Source of the DNA: Pseudomonadota bacterium
GTDB taxonomy: Bacteria > Pseudomonadota > Gammaproteobacteria > Steroidobacterales > Steroidobacteraceae
Direction of reading: 5' to 3'
NCBI GenBank assembly: GCA_026398735.1
Contig: JAPLSH010000009.1
Coordinates: 1 to 64,000 of the forward strand
DNA: 64,000 nucleotides
Part shown: positions 3,417 to 52,770 of the stretch, piece after piece
How the letters are laid out: the number at the start of each line of letters is the position of its first letter
How positions within the stretch are numbered: position 1 is the first letter of the stretch
Program-made: the position numbers and the translations under genes
The notes under the pieces: generated by a model
What the model was told of the DNA's origin: nothing
Database searches by the model: none
Seen by the model: only the letters and a program-made list of their open reading frames with translations

Positions 3417-5800
3417 CGCCGCCCTTCAAAGTAAGGGTTAAACAGCTTCACCCGCTGCAGCAGCGGGTAGGTGCGAGAGCTGGGTGCTGCATCAAAGACC
3501 ATGGCTTGCGGGCTAGCTTCGGTAAACGCTGCCCACGTGGGCAAGCCCGGGCCGTTGGGGTCGCCCTTCGCGGCAAAGTTCACGTATAGGGAACTGATCG
3601 TGTCGGCCAACGCTGCATCCTGCAGCGACGGCGCGCGGCGCGTTGCCAGCGTGCGGAACGCAAACGGCACATCGCTGCCATGCCCCGAACCCTCTGCCGG
3701 CGGCACCGGGTTGTTGAAGTGATACAGGAACACCTTGCCCTTGCCGTGTAGCGACTGGTCACGCGCCCAAGCCCACGTGTTCCACGTAAAGCTGGTCTCG
3801 TTGCCTACATGGCGCAAGGCCTTGATGGCCTCGGCCTCGGTCGCATGCGGATAGGCGGCCAGAATCGCGTCCGCCTGCGCGGGGTAACGCTCGCGCATCT
3901 GTTTCTCAAAGTCTGCAGGCGTTACGGACTTGGGCCCGCCAAACACCAGCGTTTCATCTGACACATTACCCAGCAACACGGGCGTGTCATTGAAGCGACC
4001 TTTGCCATACAACGTGCGCAGATCTGCGTTGATCAAATAGCCATCGGCAGCAGGCCGAAACGCCATGCCTGCAGTGGCTGCCTGAAGCGTCTGCGCATCT
4101 AAGCGCCGTGCTGCAGCAATATCTTTGACGCCAAGCTTGTCTAAGAAAGCCTTGCCATTAGATTCGGCATACGCCAGCGCCGGAATGCCAAGACCCGAAC
4201 CGTTCGCGGCCGACGTCTGCAAGGGGCCAAACGATGCGCCACTCATGGCAATGACACGATGGAACAGACCCTTGGAGCGCGGGCTAGCTGCCAGCAGACT
4301 GACCGCAGCGCTGCCTGCCGAATGACCGAAGATGGTGACGTTGTCCGGATCGCCGCCAAACGCTGCGGCATTGGCCTTCACCCACTGCAGGCCGGCCACC
4401 AGATCCAAAATGCCATAGGCACCTGAGCCGCGGCCACTCTCACGGCTGAGCTGAGGATGCGCCATGAAGCCATACACACCGAGGCGATACGCCACACTCA
4501 CCACGACCGCGCCCTTGTTGGCCAGCGCAGTGCCGTCATACATCGGAATGCTGGTGGAACCGCCCACATAGCCGCCACCGTGAATCCAAACGATCACCGG
4601 CAACTTCGCTGTAGTGGTGCGCGCGGGAGTCCATACGTTGAGGTACAAGCAGTCTTCGCTGACCGGCGCAGTGTTGCCCTGTGTGTTGGGCGCCTGCATG
4701 CAGGCATTGGCAAAGCTGTCGGCCTTGCGCGTACCAGTCCAAGGCGCAACAGGTGCAGGCGCCTTCCAGCGCAGCGCGCCAACCGGCGGCGCCGCGAAGG
4801 CAATGCCTTTGAACACAGACAGACCACTCTCGTACAGCCCACTGACCTCGCCGCCTGTGACCTTGACCGGCGGGATCTGCGCCACGATGGGCGACGTGGG
4901 CCACGGTGGCGGCATGTAGTAAGGCGCGCCCAAGAACACGGCCTGTACCGCAGTAATGCGCCGGTCTTCTACCTTGAACATCTCGAGAAAGGCCCAGCTG
5001 TGCGGCTCGCGATATACAGACTTGCGCGGTGCGCCATCGGTGAGCACGTAGTCATCGAGCACACCCTTGTGATCGATAAAGCCGCGGGCAATCACCACCT
5101 GCCGCTCTTCGTCGATCAGCACATAGTCGCGGTCACGCACACGCTCATTGAAGCGATAGTTGCCGGTCTTGAAGCCCTTCTCGATCTCGGGAAACAGCAA
5201 GCCGTTCTCGATGCGCGTGGCCTCTGGCGAGAAGGCAGTGCCACGGATCGTGCCGTCGTTCTGCTGCAACGTCGAAAAGTAGCCATCGGCATAGGTCACC
5301 AGCTGCTCGCGTGGCAGGCGGCGGGCTGAATCGACCGACTTCACAAAGTTGCGATCGGGTTTGTACTGCGCGTGCGGGCCGATGGGTGTGGGTGGCGACG
5401 ACAGGTTGCGCTTGGTCGAGACGATGTGTTCGATCTCGGTGATTTCGCCGTCAGCGATCTTGAGGCGGATGGCCAAGTAGCCTTCGGTGTCGCGACTCTG
5501 CACGATGGCGGTATACACGCCCACATTGCCAGTGCGCGGGTCTGAGAAGGTCATGGCCGTGCCGACCTCAGCGGTGACAGTGTCCCAGGTGCCATCGGGG
5601 AACTTGAGCACCACACCGTTCTCGGTGTAACGCAGCGTGCGGGCCAGCGGCAGTCCTTTGGGATCGTGCTTCACATAGGCCGCACGGTACTGGTCGGCGA
5701 TGGCCTCCATGCAAGCCTTGTCGCAAGGCCCTGCCGCTGCATTGGCCAGCGACGCACCCACCACCAACAGCCCCGTAAACAGGATTTTTGCGTACCGCAT
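3413..5800 (-). CDS. Type B carboxylesterase fused to N-terminal NTF2-like domains
   Basis: A 795-residue secreted protein. Residues 1-22 are a signal peptide. Residues 25 to about 300 form two NTF2-like repeats (CDKACMEAIADQY; then PREQLVTYADGYFSTL). This part is homologous to the whole protein encoded at 12525-13436. From about residue 310 a type B carboxylesterase follows: VFKGIAFAAPPVG, EDCLYLNVWTP, the oxyanion-hole motif HGGGYVGG, the nucleophile elbow GHSAGS near residue 493, and HGSDVPF near the end for the catalytic histidine. It should hydrolyse esters in the periplasm or outside the cell. Most type B esterases lack the N-terminal module. It diverges from the alpha/beta hydrolase gene at 5960. 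Confidence 0.9.
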   Translation of the reverse strand: MRYAKILFTGLLVVGASLANAAAGPCDKACMEAIADQYRAAYVKHDPKGLPLARTLRYTENGVVLKFPDGTWDTVTAEVGTAMTFSDPRTGNVGVYTAIVQSRDTEGYLAIRLKIADGEITEIEHIVSTKRNLSSPPTPIGPHAQYKPDRNFVKSVDSARRLPREQLVTYADGYFSTLQQNDGTIRGTAFSPEATRIENGLLFPEIEKGFKTGNYRFNERVRDRDYVLIDEERQVVIARGFIDHKGVLDDYVLTDGAPRKSVYREPHSWAFLEMFKVEDRRITAVQAVFLGAPYYMPPPWPTSPIVAQIPPVKVTGGEVSGLYESGLSVFKGIAFAAPPVGALRWKAPAPVAPWTGTRKADSFANACMQAPNTQGNTAPVSEDCLYLNVWTPARTTTAKLPVIVWIHGGGYVGGSTSIPMYDGTALANKGAVVVSVAYRLGVYGFMAHPQLSRESGRGSGAYGILDLVAGLQWVKANAAAFGGDPDNVTIFGHSAGSAAVSLLAASPRSKGLFHRVIAMSGASFGPLQTSAANGSGLGIPALAYAESNGKAFLDKLGVKDIAAARRLDAQTLQAATAGMAFRPAADGYLINADLRTLYGKGRFNDTPVLLGNVSDETLVFGGPKSVTPADFEKQMRERYPAQADAILAAYPHATEAEAIKALRHVGNETSFTWNTWAWARDQSLHGKGKVFLYHFNNPVPPAEGSGHGSDVPFAFRTLATRRAPSLQDAALADTISSLYVNFAAKGDPNGPGLPTWAAFTEASPQAMVFDAAPSSRTYPLLQRVKLFNPYFEGRR

Positions 5801-5959
5801 GCCCCACCCCGCCGCTTGTTATTTGTGGTGAATTTAGCAGGTATTGACCGACTATAGACTTGGCCGTCCAAAGGATCGAACATAGCTTGGATCAGCCCAA
5901 GCCCGGCAAGAGGCATTGGCTGACAGCTGCCGGTTTAACGCTCTGAGGGGGACTGCCTG

Positions 5960-6907
5960 ATGCGTTTGAGATTCACAGTTACGGTCGCTGTCATCGCAGC
6001 CGGTCTTACACTGCCCTGCTTGGCACAAGTGCCGGCAGAGCTGGCCGCCCAGATCCGCGGCATCGGACGCACAGTCGACACGCTCAAGACCGGCGCCCTC
6101 TATGCGCCGCTGCAAGAGCCCCTGCCGGCCTCGATGCGCGCCACGCGCGATCTGAAGTTCGGTGCAGACGCCAAGCAAACCCTGGATGTCGTGGCGCCTG
6201 CTGCGGTCAGCGGCACGCCCCGTCCGGTGTTTTTGTTCGTGCACGGCGGTGGCTATGTGCGCGGCGACAAGACACTGGACGAGACCGGCAAGGCCAGCAT
6301 CTTCTACGACAACATCATGATCTGGGCCGTCAAGAACGGCATGATCGGCGTCAACGTCAACTACCGGCTGGCACCGCAGTTTCAGTATCCGGCAGTGCAA
6401 CAAGACCTGGGCGCTGCGGTGAAGTGGGTGCAGGACAACATTGCCCGCTACGGCGGCGATCCGGCCAAGCTCTACATGATGGGACACTCAGCCGGTGCAG
6501 GCCACGTGGGCTCTTACGTTGCACACCCCGAGTTTGGCCCCAACGGCCAACTGGGTCTGAAAGCAGCGGTGTTCAGCTCTGGCAATTTCGAGTTCGCGCC
6601 TGCGCCAGGCCAAAAGGCCAACCATCCTTATTTTGGCGCGCAGGCCGCCGAACACTCGTCGTTGCCGGGTTTGGTGGCCACCAAGACACCCTATCTGGTG
6701 ATCGTCGCCGAGCTTGATCCAGTTGGCTTCCATGAACAGGCCGGCAAGTTGATGAACGCTGTTTGCGCGGCAGGCAACTGCCCGCCTTATCTGCTACTGC
6801 GTGATCACGGCCATATGTCTGGCAACTATGCAGTCAACACGGCCGACACATCGCTGTCGGGCACGGTACTTGAGTTTTTAAAAAAATCCGGCGGACTCAC
6901 GAGGTAA
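5960..6907 (+). CDS. Secreted alpha/beta hydrolase (esterase/lipase-like)
   Basis: A 315-residue protein with a signal peptide ending near PCLAQVPA (residues 18-25). The HSL/BD-FAE-like alpha/beta hydrolase core shows the oxyanion motif HGGGYVRGD at about 94-102, NYRLAPQFQYP, the nucleophile elbow GHSAGAG near 175, and late in the chain ELDPVGF (acid) and HGHMS (histidine). It probably hydrolyses short-chain or aromatic esters in the periplasm. The start ATG lies 8 bp behind GAGGGGG. It heads an apparent operon: the DUF6152 gene begins 5 bp after its stop and two more secreted proteins follow. Confidence 0.88.
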   Translation: MRLRFTVTVAVIAAGLTLPCLAQVPAELAAQIRGIGRTVDTLKTGALYAPLQEPLPASMRATRDLKFGADAKQTLDVVAPAAVSGTPRPVFLFVHGGGYVRGDKTLDETGKASIFYDNIMIWAVKNGMIGVNVNYRLAPQFQYPAVQQDLGAAVKWVQDNIARYGGDPAKLYMMGHSAGAGHVGSYVAHPEFGPNGQLGLKAAVFSSGNFEFAPAPGQKANHPYFGAQAAEHSSLPGLVATKTPYLVIVAELDPVGFHEQAGKLMNAVCAAGNCPPYLLLRDHGHMSGNYAVNTADTSLSGTVLEFLKKSGGLTR

Positions 6908-6912
6908 TCAAC

Positions 6913-7308
6913 ATGAAGACCACACACGTACAGTCTCTGGTAGCAGGCCTCGTGGCGTGCGCCGTATTGCTGGTGCTGGCCGCAGGCCCGGTCTATGCAC
7001 ACCACTCCGGTGCCATGTTTGATCGCAACAAGCCAATGGTGCTCGAGGGTGTTGTGAAGGCCTTCCAGTGGACCAACCCACACTCGTGGCTGCAGGTCGA
7101 AGTGTCAGACGGTAAAGGTGGCACCAAGGAATGGTCGGTTGAATGCGGCAGCCCCAACACACTGGCTCGCACCGGCTGGCGTAAGACCACATTCAACGCG
7201 GGTGACAAGGTCAAGGTCCGCATCGGCCCGATGATCGACGGCACCGCTGCCGGCATTTTTGTTGGCGCGCAGTTGGCCAACGGCGAAACCCTCGGTGAGA
7301 TGAAGTAA
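6913..7308 (+). CDS. DUF6152 family secreted protein
   Basis: A 131-residue protein with a signal peptide ending at VYAHH. The mature protein carries the DUF6152 signature: HHSGAMFDRNKPMVLEGVV at its N-terminus, then WTNPHSWLQVEV, and later WSVECGSPNTLARTGW. Paired histidines at the new N-terminus and NPHSW are conserved in the family and hint at metal or cofactor binding, but the function is unknown. It is followed 2 bp later by its partner gene (7311). The same pairing recurs as a fused gene at 13451-14587 and as a pair at 42593-44093. Confidence 0.85.
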   Translation: MKTTHVQSLVAGLVACAVLLVLAAGPVYAHHSGAMFDRNKPMVLEGVVKAFQWTNPHSWLQVEVSDGKGGTKEWSVECGSPNTLARTGWRKTTFNAGDKVKVRIGPMIDGTAAGIFVGAQLANGETLGEMK

Positions 7309-48598: not shown

Positions 48599-49000
48599 AT
48601 GATGGACAAGCCGCATGCGCATATCCGCATCGATTATTCCGCTGCCTGTTCCCTTGGGCCCGGCAAGATCAGCCTGCTGGAAGCCATCGACCACACGGGT
48701 TCTCTGTCTGGCGCAGCTCGGTCGCTGGGCATGAGCTACCGGCGCGCCTGGCTGCTGCTGCAGAGCGTGAATGCCGGGTTTCAGGAACACGCTGTTGAAC
48801 TGGCTGCCGGCGGCAAGGATGGTGGTGGCGCGCAGCTGACGGCCTTCGGCCGACGCCTCATCGCGGACTACCGACAGTTCGAGTCGACCGTCGACCAGTT
48901 GGCCAAGAAGGCGTTTGGCGGCGTTCGCGTCAACAGCGAGTCCGGCAGTAGCGCCGCCACGCGACGCAGGCTCACGCGGAAGCTTCCGGACAAAGCCTAA
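48599..49000 (+). CDS. ModE-like winged-helix transcription regulator
   Basis: A 133-residue protein with only the DNA-binding half of ModE. Residues 24-92 match it closely: ISLLEAIDHTGSLSGAARSL, GMSYRRAWLLLQSVN, and the wing GGKDGGGAQLTAFGRRLIADY. The molybdate-binding Mop/TOBE domains of full ModE (about 260 residues) are missing; a basic tail ends the protein. The ATG at 48599 (or 48602) fits the family start; the long upstream frame does not. A perfect ModE-type palindrome lies 52 bp downstream of its stop, in front of the TonB receptor, which it very likely controls. How it senses molybdate or another oxyanion is unclear. Confidence 0.9.
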   Translation: MMDKPHAHIRIDYSAACSLGPGKISLLEAIDHTGSLSGAARSLGMSYRRAWLLLQSVNAGFQEHAVELAAGGKDGGGAQLTAFGRRLIADYRQFESTVDQLAKKAFGGVRVNSESGSSAATRRRLTRKLPDKA

Positions 49001-49033
49001 CTACCCGAGCACCTGCATTCTTCGCCACAGCGT

Positions 49034-49078
49034 TTGGGAAACCTCGACTCATGCGCTATATTCTATTGTATATAGCGC
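49034..49078 (+). promoter_or_regulatory. Promoter with ModE-type operator before the TonB receptor
   Basis: GCGCTATAT (49053-49061) and ATATAGCGC (49070-49078) form a perfect 9-bp inverted repeat with an 8-bp spacer, the layout of the known ModE consensus (CGCTATATA-N6-TATATAACG). It overlaps a good -10 element TATATT (49057-49062), which stands 17 bp from a -35 TTGGGA (49034-49039). A bound regulator would block RNA polymerase, so repression is expected. Confidence 0.8.
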
Positions 49079-49113
49079 TGTATGTTCGAGCGCTCAGTTG
49101 CGGAGTAGAGATC

Positions 49114-51603
49114 TTGCGAGTACCGACACCGACCATCTTTGTGGCAGTTCTGCTGGTCGCGACCCCAGCTCTGGCAGCGCAACCGGCCACGCTTCAACCC
49201 GCGGTGCGCTCCGACCAGCCGGTACTTGAAGAGGTCACCGTCACCGCCCGTCGCCGCGAGGAAAGTCTCCAATCGGTGCCCATGGCGGTTTCGGTGGTCG
49301 GCGGCGAATTGTTGGACAAATCTTCCACAGTGAATACTCAACAACTGTCACAACTCGTGCCCGCGCTCTATTACAACTCCGCGAATCCCCGAAACACGGC
49401 CTACACCATCCGTGGCCTGGGCTCGAACACCCTGTCGGTCAGCGCGGCCAACGATGGCATCGAGCCGGGCGTTGGCTTCTATGTGGATGGCGTGTACCAC
49501 GGTCGTCCGGCCACTGCCGCCTTCGATTTCACCGATATCGAGCGCGTGGAGATCCTGCGCGGCCCACAGGGAACCCTGTTCGGCAAGAACACCACCGGCG
49601 GCGCCATAAACATCGTCAGTCGTGCGCCTACTTTCGAACCCGAGGGCACGGCGCAGGTGTCGTTCGCCAGCGATGACTACATGCAGGCTAGGGCCAGCTT
49701 CTCGGGCGACCTTACGGATCGCGTGGCGGGCCGCCTCTCGGCACAGGTCACGCGCCGCGACGGTCTGATCACGAACGTCTCCAACGACCGCAAGCTGAAC
49801 TCCTTGAACAACGTGGCGCTGAAGGGTCAGCTGCTGTTTCAGGCCACTGACGATCTCGTGCTGCGACTGATCGCCGACGTGTCTGATTTCGACGCGGACT
49901 GTTGCACACAAAGCTATCTTCGCGTGGGCACCAGCCTGCGCGGCGCCGCCCGCCAGTTTGCTGGACTCTCCGCAGCGCTGCCCGCACACGGCTTCCCCGC
50001 CTATGTGCCACCCAGCACCAACGTGTTCGACCGACTGACAGACATCGATGCGCCGCTGCATGTGGACACTCAGGACGGTGGTATTTCTCTGAACGCCGAC
50101 TGGAAGCTCGGAGCGAGCACGCTCACCTCCATCACAGCCTGGCGTTGGTGGGACTGGGACGTTGCCAATGACCGCGACTACATTGGCGTGCCGATCCAGC
50201 TCGTGCAGCGCATCCCCTCCCGCCAGGACCAGTACAGCCAGGAACTTCGCATCGCGTCCGACGGCGAAGGTCCGCTGACCTACGTCGGTGGCCTGTATTT
50301 CTTCAAGCAGACCATCGACGGCAAGCCAACCAGCGTGTACGGCCCCGCGGCAGCGTACTGGCTGATCAGCACCACGAATTTCGTCGCGGCAGATCGGCCG
50401 GACAATCTCGCCAACGGCTACGGCCAGTTTGGCGACACGCATTTCACGATGAACAGTTACGCTGCTTTCGGCGAGCTGAACTACCGAATCCTGCCGAAAC
50501 TCACCGGCACGCTTGGCCTGCGCTACACCTACGAAGACAAGCATGGCGACTACGCCACGACGGTGTCGGGTGGTCTGCCCTTCTCCACGCTGCCTGATCC
50601 GGTCACCTGCACGATGCTCACGGGGGCCGTGCTCAATGGTCGCGACAACGCCAAGCTGTCGCTGTTCCGACCGCAGTGCTATTCCGTCGATGACAGCGGC
50701 GGCAGTCTTTCCGGACGCGCAAATCTCGCCTGGCAGTTCACCGACAATGTGATGGCCTATGCGAGCTTTGCCCACGGCTATAAGGCCGGCGGCATCAACA
50801 TGTCTGGGCTGCAGCTCACCGGTGGCACCGGGGCAGGTGCAAACCAACCCGCGCTGGACACTGCTGTGATCGGTGACGAGACGAACAGTACACTTGAGCT
50901 GGGCTTGAAAAGCACGCTGTTCCAGGGTCGCGTCACGGCGAACCTGGCCGTCTACAAGACTGTCGTGAAGGATTTCCAGGCGAACATCGCAACGCCGGTC
51001 ACCGCCAACAACGCCGCACCCTTGCGGACCTTTCCCGCCAACATCCCGGAAGTCCAGGTGAAGGGGTTCGAGGCCGACCTGGCCGCGCTCGTTTTCACCG
51101 GATTCACGCTCCGTGCGTCGCTGGCCTACGCCGACGGTACCTACACCGACTACCCTGCCGGCCCCTGCCCGCTCGAATGGCAGAACCCCAACGCCACCGG
51201 CGGCTGCCAGCCGCTGGTGCCGCCGGCAACGCTGGCAAACCAGACCGTGAACCCGCGCGGCAATCCGGCCATTCCCGGCGCTTATGTGCTGACCGGGCTG
51301 CCATTGGCCGGCCTGTCGAAGTGGGTCGGCACCGTGGGCGTCGACTACGCGACCCAGGCGGGCAGCGGTGAGGCCTACGTCCACGCCGACTGGAATGTGC
51401 GCTCCGGCTACAACGCGGATACAACGAATTCCCGCTACACCCGGCTCGCCGGATACGGTGTGGTCAATGCCAGCCTGGGCTACCGGTTCGCCTCGGGCTG
51501 GGAAGCCGAGGTGTTTGCGCGAAACCTACTCGACAAGGACTATGTGACCGCGCTGACGATCCAGACGGGCAATTCCGGCTTGATCCTCGGCCAGGCGGGT
51601 TAG
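49114..51603 (+). CDS. TonB-dependent receptor, probably ModE-controlled
   Basis: An 829-residue outer membrane receptor. I choose the TTG at 49114: GGAG lies 8 bp upstream, it yields a signal peptide (TIFVAVLLVATPALAAQ), and an ATG at 49051 would put the start inside the operator. The TonB box is about EEVTVTARRREESL, then plug motifs VNTQQLSQLVPALYYN, DGVYHGRPATAAFDF and VEILRGPQGTLFGKNTTGGAINI. The barrel ends in a truncated-looking VTALTIQTGNSGLILGQAG without the usual terminal aromatic, so the last strand may differ. The subclass is that of siderophore-like or small organic ligand receptors. Regulation suggests molybdate, tungstate or a chelate as ligand. Confidence 0.92.
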   Translation: MRVPTPTIFVAVLLVATPALAAQPATLQPAVRSDQPVLEEVTVTARRREESLQSVPMAVSVVGGELLDKSSTVNTQQLSQLVPALYYNSANPRNTAYTIRGLGSNTLSVSAANDGIEPGVGFYVDGVYHGRPATAAFDFTDIERVEILRGPQGTLFGKNTTGGAINIVSRAPTFEPEGTAQVSFASDDYMQARASFSGDLTDRVAGRLSAQVTRRDGLITNVSNDRKLNSLNNVALKGQLLFQATDDLVLRLIADVSDFDADCCTQSYLRVGTSLRGAARQFAGLSAALPAHGFPAYVPPSTNVFDRLTDIDAPLHVDTQDGGISLNADWKLGASTLTSITAWRWWDWDVANDRDYIGVPIQLVQRIPSRQDQYSQELRIASDGEGPLTYVGGLYFFKQTIDGKPTSVYGPAAAYWLISTTNFVAADRPDNLANGYGQFGDTHFTMNSYAAFGELNYRILPKLTGTLGLRYTYEDKHGDYATTVSGGLPFSTLPDPVTCTMLTGAVLNGRDNAKLSLFRPQCYSVDDSGGSLSGRANLAWQFTDNVMAYASFAHGYKAGGINMSGLQLTGGTGAGANQPALDTAVIGDETNSTLELGLKSTLFQGRVTANLAVYKTVVKDFQANIATPVTANNAAPLRTFPANIPEVQVKGFEADLAALVFTGFTLRASLAYADGTYTDYPAGPCPLEWQNPNATGGCQPLVPPATLANQTVNPRGNPAIPGAYVLTGLPLAGLSKWVGTVGVDYATQAGSGEAYVHADWNVRSGYNADTTNSRYTRLAGYGVVNASLGYRFASGWEAEVFARNLLDKDYVTALTIQTGNSGLILGQAG

Positions 51604-51675: not shown

Positions 51676-51699
51676 TAGTCACTCTCGGTGACTATTTTT
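51676..51699 (+). terminator. Intrinsic terminator after the TonB receptor
   Basis: TAGTCAC (51676-51682) pairs with GTGACTA (51688-51694) around the loop TCTCG, followed by TTTTT (51695-51699). It lies 72 bp after the receptor stop and overlaps the end of the chimeric transposase frame on the other strand. Confidence 0.75.
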
Positions 51700-52770
51700 G
51701 AAGACCCGTAAACCTCTCACCCCGCCTGACGCCAGATGCCTGGGTACTCGGTGGCCACCGCACAGCCGCCGCGCGGCACGGTGGCGCGCCTGCGCGAGCA
51801 CAGTCGGGACATCGGGATAGGTCCCGAGCGAGAGCGTCTTTCGCTTGCTGCCGTATCGGTACTGGTAGTGCCAGTACCGCCCGCCTTGAGGCCTGACCAG
51901 CAGATACAGACCTCCGCCGAAGAAGATCTTCCGCGGATATCGCACCGATCCCCCGATGTGCGCTCGCGCGCGCGGCGGCTTGGAACGTTCCGCCGAGTTC
52001 TGGTGCATTCGCGAAATTTGGTCGACGCCCCGAGGCAACGGTGTATCGCAATCGGCGAGCGCCAGCGCCCATGACGCCTTCAACGAGCCCGGCTGCCTGT
52101 TCGTGCCCGTCGGCAACAAGTACTGCTGCTTGCGAATGCGATGAGCGAGCTCAATGCCCGCGAGCGTAATGGTGGCCGAGCGAAAGCTCTTCAACCCCAG
52201 CATCGGCGCACACCGCTGCTTGATGGCGCGATGATCCTGCTCTACAACGTTGTTCAGATAGCGTCGCGCCCGAACTTCCACGGCACTCCACCGAGGATCT
52301 TCATCTCCCAACAGCCTCAGGCCCCGATGCGTCGCGCTGTTGCCATCGACGTTGATCTTCTGCGGCCACGGCACATCGCCCTGACTGACGGCCGCATGGA
52401 AGAACGCCTGAGCGGCCTCCATACTGCGATCATTGCAGAGCAACGAAGCCACGGACTTTCCGTGCCGATCTACCGCGCGATAAAGGTAGTGCCGCCCGCC
52501 CCGGACCGAAACTGCCGTCTCATCCATGCGCCAGGACGACCCCGGCGATCGCGCGAAGCGCGCCCATCGGCGCTCATACTCGGGCACATAGCGCAGCACC
52601 CAGCGCATGATGGTCGTGTGGGACACAACGACGCCCTGCTCCGCCATCATCGCGGCCAGATCGCGATAGCTGAGTCGATAGGTGATGTACCAGCGCACGC
52701 AGGTCTCGATGGTCTCGGCGGAAAAGCGACGCCCGGCATAGATCGGGTCGCGCGAGATACGTCTGGCCAT
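51679..52770 (-). CDS. IS6-family transposase, reading through into integrase remnant
   Basis: Residues 1 to about 220 are an IS6/IS26-like DDE transposase: helix-turn-helix region LSYRDLAAMMAEQGVVVSHT, catalytic Asp83 (SWRMDETAVSV), Asp142 (INVDGNS) and Glu177 (NNVVEQDHRAIKQR). The typical family length is about 235 residues. Here the frame continues through the left inverted repeat (51997, residue 258) and ends in 105 residues derived from flanking DNA that includes an integrase arm-binding domain. The tail is therefore an insertion by-product, and whether the enlarged enzyme is active is uncertain. Confidence 0.9.
   Translation of the reverse strand: MARRISRDPIYAGRRFSAETIETCVRWYITYRLSYRDLAAMMAEQGVVVSHTTIMRWVLRYVPEYERRWARFARSPGSSWRMDETAVSVRGGRHYLYRAVDRHGKSVASLLCNDRSMEAAQAFFHAAVSQGDVPWPQKINVDGNSATHRGLRLLGDEDPRWSAVEVRARRYLNNVVEQDHRAIKQRCAPMLGLKSFRSATITLAGIELAHRIRKQQYLLPTGTNRQPGSLKASWALALADCDTPLPRGVDQISRMHQNSAERSKPPRARAHIGGSVRYPRKIFFGGGLYLLVRPQGGRYWHYQYRYGSKRKTLSLGTYPDVPTVLAQARHRAARRLCGGHRVPRHLASGGVRGLRVFKNSHRE
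51763..51927 (-). pseudogene. Tyrosine integrase N-terminal fragment (DUF4102)
   Basis: In the frame of the transposase tail, residues about 285-336 read GGGLYLLVRPQGGRYWHYQYR, then SKRKTLSLGTYPDVPTVLAQARHRAARRL (broken here for length). This is the arm-DNA-binding domain of P4-type integrases. The catalytic domain is absent and the sequence after RRL looks frameshifted. P4-type integrases insert islands into tRNA genes and guaA-like sites, so this fragment fits the guaA island 1 kb away. Confidence 0.85.

Follow-up and report, generated by a model that had tools for sequence, protein, structure and literature searches.

The locus described here raises the question as to what a TonB-dependent receptor would import when its gene lies directly behind a regulator of the ModE type. 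Established cargoes of such receptors are iron complexes, haem, cobalamin, copper, nickel, sugars and PQQ. In the window, that is, the whole 64-kb stretch of DNA that was analysed, the gene of a single-domain ModE-like regulator (48599-49000, forward strand) is located immediately 5′ of a palindromic operator (49053-49078), which is followed by the gene of a TonB-dependent outer-membrane receptor (49114-51603, forward strand). Beyond the receptor gene, at 51679-52770 on the reverse strand, an IS240/IS6-type transposase is in frame with an Arm-DNA-binding domain of the kind with which tyrosine integrases normally begin; this arrangement perhaps reflects insertion into an integrase gene. PADLOC defence models gave no match.

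The regulator comprises 133 residues with a winged helix-turn-helix only, and in a profile search residues 19-112 match TIGR00637 (ModE_repress) with E = 2.8e-24, the score of 85 bits lying under the curated cut-off of 98.5. The N-terminal winged-helix DNA-binding domain of ModE is also identified by matches to PDB 2ijl (E = 1.1e-21) and to the E. coli ModE entries 1b9m (6.7e-13) and 1o7l, and the GGKDGGGAQLT wing is present. Since domain searches of the gene found no C-terminal Mop/TOBE molybdate-binding domain, the protein is classed as a ModE-like, single-domain regulator and not as full ModE. A sequence-only reading of this DNA had stated that the DNA-binding residues of ModE are kept and that the Mop domains are missing, and both statements hold. 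The same reduction to the DNA-binding domain is seen in the single-domain ModE of Agrobacterium (PDB 2ijl) and of Desulfovibrio (PMC545781), for which the sensing mechanism was described as unclear in 2004 (PMC545781).

The operator reads GCGCTATAT-TCTATTGT-ATATAGCGC, with perfect 9-bp arms and an 8-bp spacer, and is conserved in the receptor clade. A sigma-70-like receptor promoter was found by consensus scan (TTGGGA-N17-TATATT, 49034-49062, forward strand, 9 of 12), such that its −10 element falls within the operator, which also spans the expected transcription start. This agrees with the sequence-only reading, which had placed a perfect 9-bp palindrome with an 8-bp spacer on the −10 element; the fit to the known ModE consensus that it had claimed is likewise confirmed, with one mismatch to the published CGNTATATA-N6-TATATANCG (PMC545781). 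Within the window CGCTATAT-N8-ATATAGCG has a sole exact match, and with up to three mismatches two matches are observed versus 0.05 expected. In the whole 2.77-Mb genome CGNTATAT-N8-ATATANCG with up to two mismatches occurs at one place only, but this uniqueness alone is no proof, because 3 per strand were obtained with the reversed pattern as a control. Taken as a predicted site, the palindrome represents a ModE-type operator at the target promoter. The arrangement resembles E. coli ModE and its modABC operator in having a homologous DNA-binding domain, a consensus-fitting operator and a box on the core promoter, but differs in that the regulator is devoid of Mop/TOBE and in that an outer-membrane receptor takes the place of modABC as the target. 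By contrast with Desulfovibrio, whose operator is CGGTCACG-N14-CGTGACCG (PMC545781), the E. coli type of operator is kept here.

The position of the operator relative to the coding sequence depends on the start codon of the receptor. The longest frame opens at ATG 49051, which would place the operator inside the coding sequence. TTG 49114 appears the likelier start, because it is preceded at a distance of 8 nt by a likely Shine-Dalgarno sequence (GGAG, 49102-49105, forward strand, read from the sequence) and directly followed by a signal-peptide-like leader, a hydrophobic stretch that ends in ALA-AQ and leads into EEVTVTARRR (signal peptide and TonB box region, read by eye). With this start the operator would lie in the promoter, outside the coding sequence. 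The protein is complete and has the Plug (6e-20) and beta-barrel (TonB_dep_Rec, 3e-43) matches to Pfam that define the receptor family; its AlphaFold2 model (pLDDT 82.6, pTM 0.84), for which two plasmid rows were left out, has the TonB-dependent receptor fold and matches FyuA, Fiu and PqqU. The closest solved structure by both sequence profile (E = 4.6e-36, plug region) and fold (E = 1.4e-38) is the ferric yersiniabactin receptor FyuA (PDB 4epa), although the two differ in sequence (18% identity), in length (829 versus 632-655 residues) and in that FyuA serves an iron siderophore system. Closeness to FyuA and to catecholate receptors fits a chelate as cargo but is generic for the fold, and the residues that are specifically conserved in the receptor clade indicate no clear ligand.

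A scan by receptor alignment, with one genome per species, yielded 80 loci, mainly from Sphingomonadales and also from Dyella, Nevskia, Steroidobacter and Caulobacteraceae; 78 of these have enough upstream sequence. Scored on 16 consensus positions, a box with an N8 spacer and at least 12 matches is found upstream of the receptor in 54 of the 78 loci, compared with 0.6% of control windows drawn at random from these loci and 1% of upstream regions after shuffling. The N8 box passes in all 15 close receptors and in none of the eight outgroup receptors, and when a spacer of either N8 or N9 is allowed, 61 of the 78 loci have a box as against 0.28% of controls. On the receptor tree the box is present throughout the clade and absent outside it; about a fifth to a third of the receptor relatives have only weak boxes, and one locus (L209) has none. 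A ModE gene lies near the receptor in 42 of the 80 loci, in line with the ModE-like/TonB receptor pairs that the sequence-only reading had led one to look for in other genomes, and in an all-against-all clustering of neighbouring ORFs ModE is, shadow ORFs aside, the only recurrent neighbour family; catabolic, enzyme or siderophore genes do not recur beside the receptor in these 80 loci. In the family to which the window's genome belongs, ModE is present in 12/12 receptor-bearing genomes versus 41/148 relatives (the latter counted at E ≤ 1e-12), and in the same genus one genome (G002) has a sister receptor without a box and is itself without ModE. The pairing of box and regulator, which on the sequence-only reading should not be absent from relatives that have the receptor, recurs, and the idea survived. 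A further genome (G116, locus L052) encodes an unrelated, shorter TonB receptor of 673 residues (5122-7143, reverse strand), whose gene and that of a single-domain ModE diverge from an intergenic region with two boxes (at 7181 and 7296, 14 and 15 of 16). With modB-modC-modA at a distance of 4-6 kb, this arrangement suggests a second, independent recruitment.

The molybdenum connection is provided by the mod genes. In relatives of the window's genome the same box is located between divergent modE and modA, and it is found upstream of modA in 10 of 13 cases versus 1.4% in the control. Several receptor loci join the two sets of genes directly: one has the order modE-modA-receptor, with modA and the receptor each preceded by a box (L041), in another the receptor is divergent from modABC (L194), and in a third receptor, modB and modC form an operon in which receptor and modB overlap by 4 bases (L209). 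On one Sphingomonas plasmid, modABC lies about 7 kb from a TOBE-modE-receptor arrangement. Given the conservation of the operator, the ModE neighbourhood and these links to mod genes in relatives, it is very likely that the receptor gene is under ModE control. The genome scan for the palindrome that had been put forward with the sequence-only reading returned the receptor operator as the sole site and no recognisable box at modA or modBC of the window's genome, and ModE may for this reason be limited there to the receptor. This genome encodes about seven molybdoenzymes of the xanthine-dehydrogenase type and two of the DMSO-reductase type, from which a real demand for molybdenum can be deduced. 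The only good modA of genome G000 (contig C18, 4799-5515, reverse strand; locus L127) is short of exactly 15 residues, in frame, which read FSFAASSALARQIES in a relative (L033), at a site that is usually an oxyanion-binding loop; the deletion could be genuine or stem from misassembly.

The spacing of the operator varies with the type of regulator. In seven loci, Dyella included (two TOBE stretches), the linked ModE retains its full length and its molybdate-binding domains, and the operator spacer is N9 in six of these (L187, L188, L190, L192, L205 and L207, with Dyella as the exception), whereas it is N8 in 34/34 single-domain loci (Fisher p = 1.6e-6, a value that ignores kinship and overstates the true strength of the association, as three of the seven full-length loci are nearly identical). 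Such a pattern would be expected if the neighbouring regulator directly recognises the box. A gene for a 68-residue TOBE protein lies directly upstream of modE (e.g. 11179-11385 in L129 and 11197-11403 in L130) on two Sphingomonas plasmids and in 11 of the 34 single-domain loci, so that ModE looks split into a sensor and a DNA-binding protein in these loci. The sensor of single-domain ModE is probably a separate TOBE-containing partner, which in many Sphingomonas would be the dedicated 68-residue protein. No stand-alone TOBE/Mop gene was found in the window's genome, where the sole TOBE domain is the C-terminus of ModC, and this is the only sensor domain available to the regulator. How a ModE that lacks its sensor domain responds, a question raised by the sequence-only reading, is answered in part for relatives, in which ModE is full-length or accompanied by a separate TOBE gene; neither explanation holds for the window's own genome.

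For the locus as a whole, a ModE-controlled outer-membrane importer of molybdate or tungstate is probably the best explanation. In the E. coli modA operator the ModE box lies over the core promoter and mediates repression when the metal is plentiful. Since the box described here likewise covers the −10 element and the start site, we infer repression as the direction of control: when molybdenum is sufficient, the ModE-like protein would bind the palindrome and the receptor gene would be off, while a shortage of molybdenum would lift the block, so that the receptor is made. The receptor would then import molybdate or tungstate across the outer membrane, most likely bound to an organic chelator, and the metal would subsequently be taken up by the molybdate ABC transporter. 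ModE-type regulation and the linkage to modA, modABC and modBC (L041, L194, L209) point to molybdenum or tungsten as the likely cargo, either free or in chelated form. A chelate is the more probable, given that free molybdate can pass through porins and that the ligands of TonB receptors are usually bulky. Of the earlier proposal of a ModE-controlled receptor for molybdate, tungstate or a chelate, the control is thus supported by the box and the mod linkage, while the ligand stays inferred.

Other cargoes would also be conceivable for a receptor that answers to molybdenum. The receptor could import the organic substrate of a molybdoenzyme, such as a purine or an aromatic aldehyde, and match its uptake to the molybdenum supply; in E. 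coli, molybdoenzyme genes are under ModE control, and the window's genome has about seven xanthine-dehydrogenase-type genes. However, the families that recur beside the receptor in the 80 loci include no enzyme or catabolic genes, the linkage is to modA and modBC instead, and a box on the −10 element fits repression by the metal, which is the opposite of what a substrate importer would need, so that this alternative is unlikely. Similarly improbable is a receptor for iron siderophores, with iron as its main cargo, that responds to molybdenum too because some siderophores bind both metals. Catecholate siderophores such as azotochelin do bind molybdate, and the best structural matches, FyuA and Fiu, are ferric-siderophore receptors, albeit in a way that is generic for the fold; yet the operator is of the ModE type and siderophore genes are not among the recurring neighbours.

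A different objection concerns the palindrome itself, which might be a chance match, or an RNA hairpin or terminator that is unrelated to ModE. A loose terminator scan does list its 9-pair stem with an 8-base loop, but no continuous terminator-like T-run follows the stem, the motif is found far more often than chance allows in front of orthologous receptors and of modA, and its spacing tracks the type of regulator. Both forms of this objection are highly improbable and were rejected on account of the recurrence at receptors and modA boxes.

A ModE-controlled importer of molybdate or tungstate would differ from the molybdate systems that have been described. A dedicated acquisition route that consists of H2-T6SS, ModA and IcmP has been reported in Pseudomonas aeruginosa (PMC8602904; PMC11734730) and is the only dedicated outer-membrane molybdate route found in the open-access papers searched. 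It shares with the present locus the dedicated delivery of molybdate via an outer-membrane partner, but relies on secreted ModA and the outer-membrane metalloproteinase IcmP (PMC8602904) instead of a TonB-dependent receptor under ModE. The open-access papers searched yielded no description of a TonB-dependent receptor for molybdate or with ModE control, although an earlier computer prediction is possible. The view of the sequence-only reading that no well characterised case is known can thus be retained for ModE-controlled TonB receptors, but has to be qualified by the other route in P. aeruginosa (PMC8602904). On balance, the loci slightly favour a widespread, hitherto undescribed class of TonB-dependent transporters for molybdenum or tungsten, probably in chelated form, that are controlled by a split ModE or by one that borrows the sensor of ModC. 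If so, molybdenum would be added to the metals served by TonB-dependent receptors, and natural molybdenum complexes worth active import would be suggested, with Dyella kyungheensis, Sphingomonas echinoides, Blastomonas natatoria and Novosphingobium species among the hosts. Sensing by a ModE that is devoid of its sensor domain would also become directly testable, since one and the same target gene is found under single-domain, split and full-length forms of ModE.
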